Shown piece by piece: positions 30,041 through 37,379 of a stretch of DNA of 64,000 bases. A model generated the notes under the pieces. It ran no database searches, was not told the origin of the DNA, and worked only from the letters and a program-made list of their open reading frames with translations. Made by a program: the position numbers and the translations under genes. The DNA comes from Candidatus Polarisedimenticola svalbardensis. GTDB lineage: Bacteria > Acidobacteriota > Polarisedimenticolia > Polarisedimenticolales > Polarisedimenticolaceae. The stretch lies in NCBI GenBank assembly GCA_014764515.1, contig JACXWD010000003.1, positions 44,351 to 108,350 on the forward strand, read 5' to 3'. The first letter of the stretch is position 1. The number at the start of each line of letters is the position of its first letter.

Positions 30041-30688
30041 CTACCACTGGGTTACCCCCGGCTGGCCCGCCAGGGTCAGATGCCTCAGGGATTCGCGATT
30101 CTCATGGATCGCCTTGCCCGTCCACATCTCGGTTGTGATCAGCTCTCCAAGCACCAGTCGAAGGTCTTCCTTTCTCCGGGCTTCGATAGCGCTCCCGAAT
30201 TCAGCCAGGGAAGTCTGAACCTGCCCCGAGCTCTGATCGATCATGTTCATGATCCGGGCATCCCGGGCGTCCAGGGCCTCGTCCAGTTGCATACGGTCCA
30301 CCAGGTCGATCTCGGCTGTGAGATCCGGGGGGGAGCCTGTGGAGAGCCGACCACCTGATGACCATGCGATACCGGCTGCCATGCCGGCGGCCAGGAGGAC
30401 GGTTGCCGCGGCGAAGCCTGCTGCAAACATGCGGAAACCGCCTGGGCGACTCCACCATCCGGCGCCGGCGCCCCGGAGGTCCGGTTGACCCAGCAGGACG
30501 ACCCTGGGAGGTTCGGGCACCGCAGGGGACGCCGCCGAAAGGGACTCCCTTGTGCCATCCAGCTCTTCCAGTTCCAGCCGGCAGGGCTCGCAATCCTCAA
30601 GGTGCCGGTCCAGTTCGATCCGGGCCTGTCCCTCGATTTCGCCGTACAGTCTGTCCAGAAGACGATCTCTCCATTCATTGCAAACCAT
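30041..30688 (-). CDS. Anti-sigma factor with zf-HC2 domain
   Basis: LDRHLEDCEPCRLELEEL (HxxxCxxC), single TM; overlaps the ECF sigma stop. Confidence 0.75.
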   Translation of the reverse strand: MVCNEWRDRLLDRLYGEIEGQARIELDRHLEDCEPCRLELEELDGTRESLSAASPAVPEPPRVVLLGQPDLRGAGAGWWSRPGGFRMFAAGFAAATVLLAAGMAAGIAWSSGGRLSTGSPPDLTAEIDLVDRMQLDEALDARDARIMNMIDQSSGQVQTSLAEFGSAIEARRKEDLRLVLGELITTEMWTGKAIHENRESLRHLTLAGQPGVTQW

Positions 30689-31262
30689 CGGTCCCACCTT
30701 CTCGCGCCAGTGCGGTTTTTAAACTTTTGAGGCCGTAGTACATCCTCGATTTCACCGTACTCTCCGGGCAACCCAGCAGTTCGGCGATTTCGCGAAATTT
30801 CAATCCCTGGAACTCCTTGAGGACCAGGACCTCCCGCTGCTCCGGTTGGAGGCGCGTGAGCGCCCGGCGGACGACTGCTCTGCGATCGCTCTCCACCAGC
30901 AGGCTGTCCGGAGTGACCGGCCTGCCCTCCACAACCGTTGGAGCCCTCTCTTCGCGATCTTTTCCACCGTCCACCACTACGGCGGCCCACCGCCCCTTCT
31001 TCCGCATGTGATCACGGGTCAGGTTCAGGGCGATCTGGTACATCCAGGTTGAGAACTTGCCGCCTGGATGGAACAGCTTCGCCTTGGAGAGGATCCGCAG
31101 GAAGGTCTCCTGACAGATGTCCTGTGCTTCCTCTCGACGGGGAAGCATGCGGTACACGAAGCGAAACAGCGGCCGCTCCCACCGCTGTACCAGCAGGCCC
31201 AGGCTGCCGGTGTCTCCCTTCTGGATTGAAGCCAGAAGCTCTTCGTCCGCTGGAATGTCCAA
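30675..31262 (-). CDS. ECF RNA polymerase sigma factor
   Basis: AQDICQETFLRILSKA; LQPEQREVLVLKEFQGLKFREIAELLGCPESTVKSRMYYGLKSLK. Confidence 0.92.
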   Translation of the reverse strand: MDIPADEELLASIQKGDTGSLGLLVQRWERPLFRFVYRMLPRREEAQDICQETFLRILSKAKLFHPGGKFSTWMYQIALNLTRDHMRKKGRWAAVVVDGGKDREERAPTVVEGRPVTPDSLLVESDRRAVVRRALTRLQPEQREVLVLKEFQGLKFREIAELLGCPESTVKSRMYYGLKSLKTALAREGGTDGLQ

Positions 31263-31614: not shown

Positions 31615-32934
31615 GTGGTGCCAGCGAGTTTGCCTAACGCCCGGATCGGTGAGGAAACAGCTTGCCGCCTTCTGGACGCTGAAGAGGAAATTCGCAGCCT
31701 GTGCGGCGAAGTCCTGGAGCGCTACGAGGAAACGACTCTGGTTTACCGTCTGGTGAACAAGCTCGGTAGTGTCCTGGGAGAAGAAGCTATCGCCGGAACC
31801 GTTCTCGAAGATGCGGCCCGGGTTCTGGGCGCCGACTCCGCAGAGATCTGGTTACAAGGGGAAGACCACCTGGAACTGGTGGCAGCCGTGCCGTCATTTC
31901 CGGCCCGGCCCGTGGTGGAGCGCCCCGGACCCTGCAAGGCGGTACTGGAAGGTCGTCCCTGGATCCAGGAGTCGGCGGAAGGGATGGCGCCGGAAATCGC
32001 CGTGCCGATCCCCGGCAGCACAGGTGAACCGATCGGTGCCATGGTTTTGATCGGCCGAGCCGACAAGCGCAACTATCGCACCGGAGAAATGAAACTCCTG
32101 ACAGCTCTGGCCACCATGCTTTCGGCCTTTATACGGAACCATCGCCTGGCCGCAAAGGCCCGGCTGGCCGATTCAAGGGCTCGGGAACAGGAAATCGCCC
32201 GCCAGGTCTATCTCGGGCTTCTTCCTGAGCGGGATCCGGAATTCGAAGGTCTGGCTATTTCCGGAGCGTGTATTTCCGCCGACACCGTAGGTGGAGACTA
32301 TTACGGCTACCACCCACTGCCCGACGGTGGCCTGGGAGTTGCCATGGCCGACGTCACCGGGCATGGGATCGGCGCCGCCATGTACATGGCCGCCGCCAAA
32401 GGTGTCTTCCAGGCCGAGTCCAGGCGGGTGATCTCACCTTCGGACCTGCTTCGAAGGGCGAACGAAGCTCTGGAGTCGGATTTTTCCAGATCGGATATGT
32501 TCGCAACCGCCTTTTTTGCTCATTTCAAGCCGGGCAGCGATCGATTCGAATACGCTCTTGGCGGGCACAATCCTCCGATCCTGATCCGGACCTCCGGCCG
32601 TGTGGAGATGCTGGACCGGGGCGGCATCGCCCTGGGCATCCTGCCTGATGTGCAGTACGAAGAGACCAGTTGCCGTGTCGAAGCCGGCGACACCCTGGTT
32701 GTGTATACCGACGGTCTTCCGGAAGCCAGGGATGAAGACAGGACTTTCTACGGTCTGGATCGGTTGAAGCGCCTTTCCGTTCTGCACCGCACGGCGGATG
32801 CCGATGAACTCCGGGACCGGATCCTGGACGACCTCATGGCGCATACCGGCGGCAGGTCTCCTTCGGATGACGTCACCCTCATCGTAATCAGGTTCACAGG
32901 CGGACCGGCCCCGAAAGGCGGGACGGATGCCTGA
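31615..32934 (+). CDS. GAF domain + PP2C/SpoIIE-type serine phosphatase
   Basis: VGGDYYGYHPLPDGGLGVAMADVTGHGIGAAMYMA; GGHNPPILIR; VVYTDGLPEARD; SDDVTLIVIRF. Confidence 0.9.
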   Translation: MVPASLPNARIGEETACRLLDAEEEIRSLCGEVLERYEETTLVYRLVNKLGSVLGEEAIAGTVLEDAARVLGADSAEIWLQGEDHLELVAAVPSFPARPVVERPGPCKAVLEGRPWIQESAEGMAPEIAVPIPGSTGEPIGAMVLIGRADKRNYRTGEMKLLTALATMLSAFIRNHRLAAKARLADSRAREQEIARQVYLGLLPERDPEFEGLAISGACISADTVGGDYYGYHPLPDGGLGVAMADVTGHGIGAAMYMAAAKGVFQAESRRVISPSDLLRRANEALESDFSRSDMFATAFFAHFKPGSDRFEYALGGHNPPILIRTSGRVEMLDRGGIALGILPDVQYEETSCRVEAGDTLVVYTDGLPEARDEDRTFYGLDRLKRLSVLHRTADADELRDRILDDLMAHTGGRSPSDDVTLIVIRFTGGPAPKGGTDA

Positions 32935-33304
32935 ACTTCAAACCATCATGATCGTCGATGACGACGCTTTCGTGCGCAGGCCGCTGGAATACATTCTGAA
33001 AGCGGAGGGCTTCCGGCCGATCCTCGCCGGCGACGGTGAAGAATGCCTGAGGCTGGTCGCCGAAGATCGTCCCGATCTGATTTTCCTCGATGTGATGATG
33101 CCCGGTCGCGACGGGTTCGGCGTGTGTCACGCCCTGAAAAGCGATCCGGTCTATTCCGATATTCCGATCATCCTGCTCTCGGCCAGGGGGCAGGAACATG
33201 ACGAAGCAAAAGGTCTGGCCATGGGTGCGGAAGAGTTCATGACCAAACCGTATTCACCATCCGAATTGATTCGCCGGGTACGGCAGATCCTTGAAAGCCG
33301 CTGA
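32927..33304 (+). CDS. Single-domain response regulator (CheY-like)
   Basis: MIVDDDAFVRRPLEYIL; FLDVMMPGRDG; MTKPYSPSELI. Confidence 0.93.
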   Translation: MPELQTIMIVDDDAFVRRPLEYILKAEGFRPILAGDGEECLRLVAEDRPDLIFLDVMMPGRDGFGVCHALKSDPVYSDIPIILLSARGQEHDEAKGLAMGAEEFMTKPYSPSELIRRVRQILESR

Positions 33305-33321: not shown

Positions 33322-33525
33322 ATGGCGATGGAAGCAATGAAGCTGGATGCAACGAATCAGGCACGCTTGCTGACGCAGCAGGAATTGCATCTGAAGATCG
33401 AGAACGTGACCGAAGAAGTGCTTCGGGATGCCGCATCGCCGGCACCCGACGAGCCGATGTGCCCGCGCATAATCTCGGCAGCGGACCTTGTCCGGCGGAT
33501 GAAGCCGTTCATGGTCTACAACTGA
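33322..33525 (+). CDS. Small hypothetical protein (67 aa)
   Basis: Own ATG with RBS-like GGAGGGGGAAG; fits an 18-nt gap downstream of CheY and a 13-nt gap upstream of the next gene. Confidence 0.55.
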   Translation: MAMEAMKLDATNQARLLTQQELHLKIENVTEEVLRDAASPAPDEPMCPRIISAADLVRRMKPFMVYN

Positions 33526-33538
33526 CCGGAGCAGACTG

Positions 33539-35656
33539 TTGGCCCAATGGAATCATCAGGACAAGACGCTGTACGCCAAACTGGTGTACTACGGGCCTGC
33601 GTTCGGCGGTAAAACCACGAACCTGGAGGCGATCCACGAGATCACGGACCATGATTCCACCGGATCGCTGCTCTCGGTGCGAACCGCCCAGGACCGCACG
33701 CTGTTCTTTGACCTGCTGCCGTTCGAACTCGGCCATATCCACGGCTACAAGGTAGCGCTGAAACTGTATACGGTTCCCGGCCAGGTTCAGTACAACGCCA
33801 CCAGGAAGGTGGTGCTCAGCGGAGCGGACGCCGTCGTGTTCGTCGCCGATTCCACCCGCACCCGGGTCAAGGACAATCGTGACAGTTTGAAGGATCTGGC
33901 GGCCAATATGGAAGCCAACAAGCTCAATCCTGCGCATGTGCCGGTACTGATCCAGTACAACAAGCAGGATGTGCAGAATGCCATGACCGCCGACGAGATG
34001 GAGCAAGCCTACGGCGTCCGGCCCGGGAAAGGGTTCCCCGCCGTTGCGACCCGGGGTGACGGGGTCATGGAAACCTTCCTGGCCGCAACGAAGGTGATGT
34101 TGCGACGCCTGGTCGAGAAGGCCGACAGCAAAACCAGGGAGTCGATCGACAGCGACAGCCTGGCCTCCCAGGTAGACAAGGCGTTCGAGCCCTATCTCTC
34201 ACGGGCCAAAGCGGTGCAATCCCTGCCTTCCATGCCCGCAACTTCCGGTGCCGAGAGTGCCGGCGCCGTGGTGATAGCCGACGGCGATCTCATGGAGCGG
34301 GCCGTGCAATCCAGCGTAGCCCTCGGTGAGCAGCTGGCGACGGAGCGGCAGCGCACAACCCGGATGGAACGCGAGTCCCGGACCTACCGGCAGCTGGGAG
34401 AGTTGCTGCGACAGACCGGCGCGACCTTCGACTATCGCGGGATCGTCGATCAGACCTTGTCCATGGCATCGGAAGTGGTAGGGGCGGCGGTCATCTCCCT
34501 TGTCAAGGGCGGCACCGATGAAGACCGCGCTGTTGCGGTGCACCAGGTCTGGGGCTCTGCCAGCGACCCGTTGTCCCTGACAGTGCCCGGGCGCCATATG
34601 CTGGCCCGTCTCGTCGCCGGCAAGGCTCCAATGGTTTTCAATGACCTCTCGGATGAGGAATGCGAATCGATCCCCCCCGGGATCCGTGAGCAGTTTCGGG
34701 CCATCGCCGGATTCCCGGTGGACCCGGTTCGGGGCACCACCCTGGTGGCCTACGCCCCCGGTCCGGACGGCAGGTTCGGCGAGGAAGACATCCGATTTCT
34801 TTCAACCGCCGCGGCTCATCTGGCCGTCGGCCTTGAAAAAGCAAGGCTATACCAGGAGCTCAGCTCGACCCGGGACCGGCTGGAAGTGCTGGTCCAGGAA
34901 CGCACCGAGGAATTGCGCCTGGCTTACGAGGAGATCCGGAGCCGGGAGCAGATGAAGGACCGCTTCCTCTCCAATCTGTCCCATGAAATGCGCACGCCTC
35001 TGACCACGGTAACCAGCGCCGCCACCTTCCTGAGAGATTACGAATCCAGCGCCGAGGCCCGCCGGGAGATGGCCGATGCCGTTCTGGACGCCTGCGGTCT
35101 CCTGAACAGGCATCTTGAAAATCTTTTCCGGGCTGTACAGCTCCAGTCCGCAGGGGACACCCTGGACCTGGACGACACCACCCCTGAAAACCTGCTTTCG
35201 GAGGCTGTCGGGCTCGCCGGGACGCCGGATCTCTTGGTGACAATCGATGAAGGCGTACAGCAGCTGAGAGTCGATCCGCGGCGGTTGAGCCGCGCGTTGG
35301 CCAACCTTCTGGAGAATGCGAAAAAATTCGGAAATTCCGAGGACAAGGTTGAGTTGAATTTGGAATTTTGCGGCGGGCCGACGCCGTCGATAGTCGTTTC
35401 GGTTCTGGATCGCAACGACCCGATCCCGGACGAAGACAGGGAACGTATCTTCCTGCCCTTCGAACAGGGCGGAGACCCATTGACCGGGAAGCCGGCCGGT
35501 ATCGGCCTGGGCCTTTATGAAAGCAGGGAGATCGCCGAACTCCATGGTGGAAGTCTGCAATACCGTGAGCGGAACGGCGGAGGCAACGAGTTTCGCCTGG
35601 TGTTCCCGGTCGTTGCCCGGATGGTGGAGGAGCGGACGGAGGTGGCAGGTGCCTGA
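33539..35656 (+). CDS. MglA-type small GTPase - GAF - histidine kinase fusion
   Basis: MglA motifs YYGPAFGGKTTNLEAI, DRTLFFDLLPFELG, LYTVPGQVQYNATRKVVLSGADAVVFVADS, IQYNKQD; GAF; HisKA FLSNLSHEMRTPLTTV; ATPase ALANLLENAKKFG, GIGLGLYESREI; TTG start. Confidence 0.88.
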   Translation: MAQWNHQDKTLYAKLVYYGPAFGGKTTNLEAIHEITDHDSTGSLLSVRTAQDRTLFFDLLPFELGHIHGYKVALKLYTVPGQVQYNATRKVVLSGADAVVFVADSTRTRVKDNRDSLKDLAANMEANKLNPAHVPVLIQYNKQDVQNAMTADEMEQAYGVRPGKGFPAVATRGDGVMETFLAATKVMLRRLVEKADSKTRESIDSDSLASQVDKAFEPYLSRAKAVQSLPSMPATSGAESAGAVVIADGDLMERAVQSSVALGEQLATERQRTTRMERESRTYRQLGELLRQTGATFDYRGIVDQTLSMASEVVGAAVISLVKGGTDEDRAVAVHQVWGSASDPLSLTVPGRHMLARLVAGKAPMVFNDLSDEECESIPPGIREQFRAIAGFPVDPVRGTTLVAYAPGPDGRFGEEDIRFLSTAAAHLAVGLEKARLYQELSSTRDRLEVLVQERTEELRLAYEEIRSREQMKDRFLSNLSHEMRTPLTTVTSAATFLRDYESSAEARREMADAVLDACGLLNRHLENLFRAVQLQSAGDTLDLDDTTPENLLSEAVGLAGTPDLLVTIDEGVQQLRVDPRRLSRALANLLENAKKFGNSEDKVELNLEFCGGPTPSIVVSVLDRNDPIPDEDRERIFLPFEQGGDPLTGKPAGIGLGLYESREIAELHGGSLQYRERNGGGNEFRLVFPVVARMVEERTEVAGA

Positions 35657-36107
35657 TCACCCCGCAGTTGAAACCAGGATGATCCCCAGTGATCCGTCCC
35701 TGTTCAAGGAAATCCGGGACTGGCTCGCCGGAGTTGCCCGGAAAGAAGGGTTCGACGAGCGGGAGACCCTGGAACTTAGCGTGGCCGTCAACGAAGCGTG
35801 TGCCAACATCCACCGCCACGCCTATTCCGGCCGTGACGACGGGGAGATCCGGTTCCAGCTGGAGATCCGGGAGGCGATGTTCAATATCAGGATCCGGGAT
35901 TACGGCAAGCGGTTCCTTCCCGAGGCGTGCCGGACTCCGGACCTCGAAAATCCGTCCGAGGGCGGATACGGAGTGTTCCTGATCCATGAACTGATGGATG
36001 AGGTCGAGTACATACGAAAAGAAGCCGGCACCGAATTACGAATGACGAAATGTCGACAGGCCGGGTCTTCGGTCGAGAAAGGTCATGGTCATGTCGGACA
36101 GACCTGA
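35649..36107 (+). CDS. RsbW/SpoIIAB-like anti-sigma factor serine kinase (HATPase)
   Basis: ETLELSVAVNEACANIHRHAY N-box; VRIRDYGK-like NIRIRDYGKRF; EGGYGVFLIHELMDEVEY G-box; start overlaps upstream stop. Confidence 0.87.
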   Translation: MPDHPAVETRMIPSDPSLFKEIRDWLAGVARKEGFDERETLELSVAVNEACANIHRHAYSGRDDGEIRFQLEIREAMFNIRIRDYGKRFLPEACRTPDLENPSEGGYGVFLIHELMDEVEYIRKEAGTELRMTKCRQAGSSVEKGHGHVGQT

Positions 36108-37032
36108 AACCGGCGCCGGAAAGCCGATGGAATCACACTCCATCCAGGACCTGGAGGAACTGTGCAAGGTGCATTCCATCAGCCTGGAACTGATCCGGCG
36201 CAGCCATAACCTGGACGACCTGCTGGATGTGGTTCTGGACGAGCTTGAAAACCGTCTTGCGGAAATCCCGGGACACGCCCTTGGGAATCGTGGTGAATCG
36301 ATGGGGGACGTCCATGACACCGCCCGGCTGAAAGCGCTGGTGACTTTTACCAGCCAGGCGGCGGAGCTGAAGGTGAAGGCGGAATTCAACCGCGAACTGC
36401 AGTCGGCCCTTGATGCCGCCGAGGCGGACCGTGAGCGGCTGGACGGGGTGATGGCCTCCATCGCGGCGGGGATCGCCATCCTGGACCGGGACGGCAAAAT
36501 CGTCAGCGTCAACAACGCCATGGCCGGACTGGTCGGCCGGGATATCGAGAGCCTGGAAGGTGACACCGTGGACTCATGGGTCGGCAAGGTTGAGGCCGGT
36601 GGTGATGGTGAGATCCAGACCCGTGTGCCTGGGGAAGGCTTGCGGGTCAGGCTGATATCCAGAAGGAATCTGAAAGGTACTGCCGGGGGCGAAGTGCTCA
36701 TGATGAACGACATAACCGAAAGGGATCGAATAGTGCAGGAAAGACATTACAAGGAAAAAATGCATGGCCTCATGCAGACCATCGGCATGCTGACCCACCA
36801 GATCAACAACCCCCTGACGTCACTGTTGGGCAGGGCCCAGATCCTGCGGATGAAATCCGAGGGTAACGAAGACGTCCTCAAGGCGGCCGGGGTAATCGAG
36901 GAATCGGCCCGCCGCATTGCCGGGCTGATCCAGGATCTCTCCGAACTGGTCAAGATCGGTGATCGCGAGGAGCTGGAGGACATGATCGACCGGGGCCTGG
37001 AGCCCGGGCAGATAGACCGGAGGAAGCCATGA
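36085..37032 (+). CDS. PAS + HisKA/DHp protein lacking an HATPase domain
   Basis: PAS: MASIAAGIAILDRDGKIVSVNNAMAGLVGRD; H-box-like MLTHQINNPLTSLLGRAQIL; ORF ends shortly after the DHp helices. Confidence 0.75.
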   Translation: MVMSDRPETGAGKPMESHSIQDLEELCKVHSISLELIRRSHNLDDLLDVVLDELENRLAEIPGHALGNRGESMGDVHDTARLKALVTFTSQAAELKVKAEFNRELQSALDAAEADRERLDGVMASIAAGIAILDRDGKIVSVNNAMAGLVGRDIESLEGDTVDSWVGKVEAGGDGEIQTRVPGEGLRVRLISRRNLKGTAGGEVLMMNDITERDRIVQERHYKEKMHGLMQTIGMLTHQINNPLTSLLGRAQILRMKSEGNEDVLKAAGVIEESARRIAGLIQDLSELVKIGDREELEDMIDRGLEPGQIDRRKP

Positions 37033-37379
37033 AGGTCAGGGAAGATCGCAAGGATGGCGTTCTCCTGTTGTACCTCGAAGGTGACGAATGCCTCGACTGC
37101 AGCACTGCCGCCGACGTGAGAACCATGATTCTCGAGAAGATCGACGGAAATTCCGACGTAGTGATGGATCTGTCCCGGGTGCAGTTCGTCGATTCGGCAG
37201 GCCTCGGGGTTCTGATAACGGTCTACAAGGCTACCAGGAGAAAAGGCAGACAGGCCCGGTTCGCCGGCGCCCGCCCGGAAGTCCATCACATCATGGAGGT
37301 CATACACCTCAACCGGATACTTGAAATGAGCCCCAACGTCGCTACTGCTGTTCGTGAACTTGGGGAGCTCCAGGCCTGA
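37029..37379 (+). CDS. STAS domain anti-sigma factor antagonist (RsbV/SpoIIAA-like)
   Basis: DVVMDLSRVQFVDSAGLGVLITVYKATRRKG with conserved DSAGLG. Confidence 0.93.
   Translation: MKVREDRKDGVLLLYLEGDECLDCSTAADVRTMILEKIDGNSDVVMDLSRVQFVDSAGLGVLITVYKATRRKGRQARFAGARPEVHHIMEVIHLNRILEMSPNVATAVRELGELQA

Follow-up and report, generated by a model that had tools for sequence, protein, structure and literature searches.

A histidine kinase joined to its own MglA-family GTPase within a partner-switching operon

The window, a stretch of 64,000 nucleotides from Candidatus Polarisedimenticola svalbardensis, encodes a protein of 705 amino acids (AA) in which a Ras-like GTPase of the MglA family and a histidine kinase form a single chain. 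The fusion is a variant of MglA-family and two-component signalling set within a partner-switching operon; it is real and old, and it has been retained in at least 13 bacterial families. The architecture is apparently undescribed so far, as a literature search found no description of an MglA–histidine kinase fusion, with the qualification that subscription papers were mostly beyond reach and that novelty is therefore unproven.

Analysis of the reading frame supported the claim of an earlier note, made from the sequence alone, that one uninterrupted ORF runs through both moieties; it begins with TTG and is preceded by GGAG. The domain arrangement proposed there was likewise borne out by Pfam and by similarity to solved MglA, and the full order is MglA-family GTPase, flexible linker, coiled coil, GAF, coiled coil, HisKA and HATPase (Table 1). 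The Pfam matches to Arf (residues 66–160), GAF_2, HisKA and HATPase_c each exceed the curated cut-off. Residues 5–192 align without a gap to the solved MglA of Myxococcus xanthus (5ymx, E 7e-49), as against E 3e-6 for the best Arf match of this G-domain, and residues 463–690 match solved histidine kinases (E 4e-20). Every part of the fusion is under purifying selection relative to a congeneric genome, with dN/dS lowest in the GTPase (0.08) and amounting to 0.15 in GAF, 0.12 in coil plus DHp and 0.15 in CA.

Table 1. Features of the fusion gene and its operon, in window positions. Gene counts over the ten orthologous loci are lower bounds (BLAST on simple reading frames).
Feature	Positions	Strand	Evidence
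GAF-SpoIIE (PP2C-type) phosphatase, RsbU-like	31615..32934	+	Pfam SpoIIE E 2e-53, GAF; orthologue in 9/10 loci
Single-domain response regulator, receiver only	32927..33304	+	Pfam Response_reg E 8e-27; 10/10 loci
67-AA protein, conserved family without Pfam or NCBIfam match	33322..33525	+	9/10 loci, absent in L048
GTPase-GAF-histidine kinase fusion, 705 AA	33539..35656	+	Pfam, solved structures, homologues
MglA-family GTPase domain, residues 1–195 (P-loop G19-T26, Arg53, TVPGQ with Gln82, NKQD 141–144)	33539..34123	+	
Flexible linker, residues 196–255, length not conserved	34124..34303	+	GTPase-to-coil distance, 35 homologues
Predicted coiled coil, residues 256–296, length 40 in all 35 homologues	34304..34426	+	
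GAF domain, residues 300–433	34436..34837	+	Pfam GAF_2 E 2.6e-7
HisKA (DHp), residues 472–534; phospho-acceptor His482 at 34982–34984	34952..35140	+	Pfam HisKA E 3e-10
HATPase_c, residues 579–691; N box and G2 normal, G1 degenerate (DRNDPIP)	35273..35611	+	Pfam E 2e-18
RsbW-type serine kinase / anti-sigma-like ATPase	35667..36107	+	Pfam HATPase_c_2 E 6e-32; NCBIfam RsbW below cut-off; 5/10 loci
PAS-HisKA protein without ATPase domain, H-box THQINNPLT	36085..37032	+	Pfam HisKA E 2e-11, PAS
STAS protein, anti-sigma-factor-antagonist type, DSAG phospho-serine site	37029..37379	+	Pfam STAS E 3e-21; 7/10 loci

The fusion recurs widely. A profile built from 16 fused proteins and searched over 297 genomes of the window's phylum returned 35 full-length matches, distributed over 34 genomes and 13 families; since the 35 include near copies, counts over them are not independent. 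One of the fusion-bearing genomes is a single contig of 5.985 Mb. A GTPase query in 60 relatives found frames of about 700–840 AA in the window's family, where no genome lacked one, as well as in other genomes of its order and class. Because full-length homologues occur in 13 families, the single-contig genome included, the fusion is not an assembly artefact. Homologues with the same architecture and operon, which the earlier note had suggested looking for, thus exist, and its refuting scenario, that the GTPase and the kinase are two proteins merged by a frameshift or join or are always encoded separately in homologues, failed. A pseudogene is excluded by the recurrent full-length homologues and by dN/dS values of 0.08–0.15. 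Outside the window's phylum, the sampling covered the phylum of one Deltaproteobacteria MAG, where none of 198 genomes carried the fusion at E <= 1e-110; a plasmid search gave only a partial match, to a Deinococcus GTPase, and a single scan of genome contigs gave unrelated kinases only. Of related architectures, a 788-AA MglA-PAS-HATPase-receiver hybrid in family f32 (L100:3301-5664) links MglA to a kinase in a second manner, and reading frames of roughly 800 AA whose GTPase match is the same occur in other sampled f32 genomes. Family f5 has a GTPase-GAF protein with extra N-terminal sequence and no kinase domain (L104:4747-6624), and in two f27 genomes TPR-DUF4388 proteins directly follow fusions that have no phospho-histidine (L057:3177-4697, L097:6879-8429).

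The catalytic motifs of the GTPase are fully preserved: G1–G4, Arg53 and Gln82 are intact in all 35 aligned fused proteins, and R53-T54 and T78-Q82 are invariant, placing the Arg finger next to the G2 Thr and TVPGQ in G3, with NKxD in G4. According to the motif criteria that define group 1 of the MglA family (Wuichet and Sogaard-Andersen, 2014; PMC4316618), the G-domain is homologous to MglA rather than to other small GTPases and has the intrinsic Arg finger and TVPGQ; at 705 AA the fusion lies outside the 150–240 AA size range of the group, and no MglB roadblock gene stands alongside. In a quickly built tree of 77 GTPase domains, all stand-alone MglA proteins, that of M. xanthus included, formed one clade (support 99) and the window GTPase with nine orthologues a separate one (support 95), the remaining fused lineages also falling outside the stand-alone clade. 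The fused GTPases therefore do not stem from recent duplication of the genome's mglA. The tree leaves the branching order among the fused lineages unresolved and is thus compatible with a single fusion event or with several.

These relationships bear on the designation 'polarity GTPase' in the earlier note, of which membership in the MglA family stands; polarity is a family inference only, for a domain outside the M. xanthus clade and an operon without hints of motility or a pole. The statement that no roadblock protein is visible is true locally, none having been detected among the operon proteins scanned, but the genome does encode one MglB, its one detected Roadblock match, beside a stand-alone mglA. 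A search of the window genome for a roadblock hidden near the fusion gene led to this match alone. The genome has a third MglA-family GTPase, of 539 AA and with a long acidic, proline-rich tail (L002:1492-3111), encoded immediately after the gene for a Der/EngA-like double GTPase; tailed MglA-like proteins of related genomes form a clade of their own.

The earlier note was silent on the partner-switching operon that surrounds the fusion. Its genes share one strand, overlap or follow each other within 17 bp, and encode together a SpoIIE phosphatase, a HATPase_c_2 kinase and a STAS protein, as recognized by Pfam. Comparison of ten orthologous loci from four families, the window included, placed the response regulator directly upstream of the fusion in every case. 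The same position is found in the distant families f14 and f16, and in one distant locus (L096, family f78) SpoIIE and response regulator genes lie downstream of the fusion. A genome search with SigB/F/G for a sigma target returned nothing over the cut-off, only general sigma-70 relatives. An ECF sigma factor gene and a zf-HC2 anti-sigma-like gene (30041-31262) are divergent from the operon and lie beside it in several orthologous loci.

Two operon proteins deserve separate comment. The members found of the 67-AA protein family measure about 62–81 AA and all end in a C-terminal Asn. As the combination of response regulator, small protein and GTPase recalls RomR/RomX/MglA, we considered a RomX-like exchange factor; this reading is weakened by relatives that lie beside a response regulator at two loci (L141, L143) where no GTPase-kinase was found, the former also having SpoIIE. 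The PAS-HisKA protein occurs at all ten loci, if weakly in L049, and its orthologues are likewise short. In the window and in all eight f1–f3 orthologues its H-box His is followed by Gln, Lys or Arg, and in f4 by Asp, so that autokinase activity is unlikely; the protein may serve in phosphotransfer or docking.

In the kinase moiety of the fusion, the 'complete histidine kinase' of the earlier note holds for the H box (H482-E483), the N box (N593) and G2 (GxGLG), but the G1 box departs from the textbook form, reading DRNDPIP instead of DxGxG. The congener has DRNERIP, orthologues of other genera have a normal DxGxG, and among the 35 sequences the degeneration is confined to the window's genus, in which it may weaken ATP binding. 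The phospho-histidine has been lost in 7 of the 35 homologues, and phosphotransfer consequently cannot be the role of all of them; His482 is retained in all ten orthologues of the window's own lineage.

The spacing of the domains suggests how they may communicate. From GAF to the H box, 22 of the 35 proteins have the window's length, 12 are longer by 21 residues and one by 19; an increment of 21 equals three heptads, as expected of a continuous coiled coil, and so points to a rigid connection by which GAF would drive the kinase mechanically. The distance from the GTPase to the first coil ranges from 70 to 126 AA across the 35 homologues and obeys no heptad rule, the linker being rich in Pro and Ala; conserved are the residues immediately past the GTPase and the coil preceding GAF. 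The pattern suggests that the GTPase hangs on a tether and serves either to dock or position the kinase or as an output in its own right. Since the GTPase-to-coil length is free and the GAF-to-H-box length is heptad-bound, a tethered docking or positioning switch appears likelier than a rigid nucleotide gate. Of the two mechanisms put forward in the earlier note, positioning of the kinase thus fits better than gating by nucleotide state; an allosteric effect of the docked GTPase on the kinase is possible despite the flexible linker.

Taken as a whole, the explanation that we tentatively favour is that of a cytosolic sensor kinase with a built-in, flexibly tethered GTPase of the MglA family, the GTPase setting where or when the kinase feeds the response regulator and the partner switch. 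The GTPase would bind and hydrolyse GTP by means of its intrinsic Arg53 and Gln82 and, when GTP-bound, would dock on a partner or at a cellular place; docking would deliver the GAF-kinase dimer to the partners of the kinase, or keep the dimer on or off, and nucleotide state would thereby decide where or when the kinase signals. GAF, for its part, would signal to the H box via the rigid coiled coil, and the kinase would phosphorylate the adjacent single-domain response regulator, which by its position is the best candidate substrate. The regulator, perhaps with the 67-AA protein, would then set the SpoIIE phosphatase, which would dephosphorylate the STAS protein in opposition to the RsbW-type kinase, the output being a partner switch; how the regulator acts on SpoIIE, and what the 67-AA and PAS-HisKA proteins do, are guesses from operon context. 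Recurrence of the architecture, intact GTPase motifs, the linker rules, adjacency of regulator and SpoIIE and the organization in one tight operon favour this explanation, and it is weakened by the degenerate G1 box, by the presence of RsbW and STAS genes in only 5 and 7 of the ten loci, respectively (both lower bounds), by the lack of a SigB/F/G match and by the 7 of 35 homologues without phospho-histidine.

Somewhat unlikely, in our estimate, is a direct allosteric gate, in which the binding of GTP or GDP would alter the kinase core within the dimer and tune autophosphorylation independently of partner or localization. Both domains remain in one chain across 13 families, and residues just past the GTPase and in the coil before GAF are conserved, both of which speak for such a gate, but the linker between GTPase and coil is variable and Pro/Ala-rich, whereas the coil that connects GAF with the kinase is strict. 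Less probable still is the reverse direction of signalling, with the kinase as input and the GTPase as output, such that phosphorylation or the GAF signal would set the state of a GTPase acting on an effector (compare Myxococcus MglA). The GTPase motifs are never lost, in contrast to the phospho-histidine, and f5 proteins combine GTPase and GAF without a kinase; however, the window's lineage keeps His482 in all ten orthologues and has the response regulator always adjacent. That the GTPase is vestigial or purely structural and no longer cycles nucleotides is very improbable, since its catalytic motifs are invariant in 35 homologues and its dN/dS is 0.08, even if the locus has no roadblock GAP gene and the whole genome a single MglB. 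An assembly join or frameshift mistaken for one protein is ruled out for practical purposes by the 35 full-length matches in 34 genomes, one of them a single contig, and by the conserved synteny.

Both conservons and Myxococcus polarity pose the unsolved question of how bacterial Ras-like GTPases communicate with two-component kinases; in these systems the components are separate proteins. In the fusion they are permanently joined, and the nucleotide dependence of the kinase could therefore be measured on one purified protein, while the stable operon names a likely substrate, the adjacent response regulator, and a likely output, the partner switch. More doubtful than the tethered arrangement itself is the broader proposition of a covalent Ras-like GTPase/two-component kinase whose GTPase cycle, without a dedicated roadblock GAP, governs kinase input to the regulator and the SpoIIE-RsbW-STAS module; if true, it would unite three bacterial switch types in one module.

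MglA of M. xanthus and Thermus thermophilus stands alone, measures about 195 AA and is coded together with MglB. The fusion shares with these group-1 proteins the GTPase fold, gap-free over residues 5–192, the Arg beside the G2 Thr, TVPGQ and NKxD, and differs in being joined to GAF and a kinase, in having no adjoining MglB gene and in lying outside the stand-alone clade. The survey of prokaryotic Ras-like GTPases excluded proteins >240 AA, thereby removing 39 of 488 members of the MglA subclade (PMC4316618), and this limit left out a widespread multidomain branch. In the conservons, which are actinobacterial G protein systems, kinase and GTPase are separate proteins of one pathway that includes a roadblock (PMC4316618, PMC13343842). 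Operon and pathway are likewise shared by a histidine kinase and an MglA-family GTPase at our locus, but conservons comprise four proteins (CvnA kinase, CvnB roadblock, CvnC and the group-2 GTPase CvnD) and no response regulator, a set that the fusion locus does not contain, whereas here GTPase and kinase are one chain accompanied by a regulator and a partner switch. The RomR/RomX complex of M. xanthus is an exchange factor for MglA (PMC10329633, PMC7332107), and in both cases a receiver protein and a small protein are coded beside an MglA-family GTPase, although no homology has been shown between the 67-AA protein and RomX. Finally, the operon resembles RsbU/RsbW/RsbV and SpoIIE/SpoIIAB/SpoIIAA in uniting a SpoIIE phosphatase, an RsbW-type ATPase and a STAS protein with DSxG; it is distinguished from such modules by having no identified sigma target and by the addition of a PAS-HisKA protein without ATPase domain, a response regulator and the GTPase-kinase itself.
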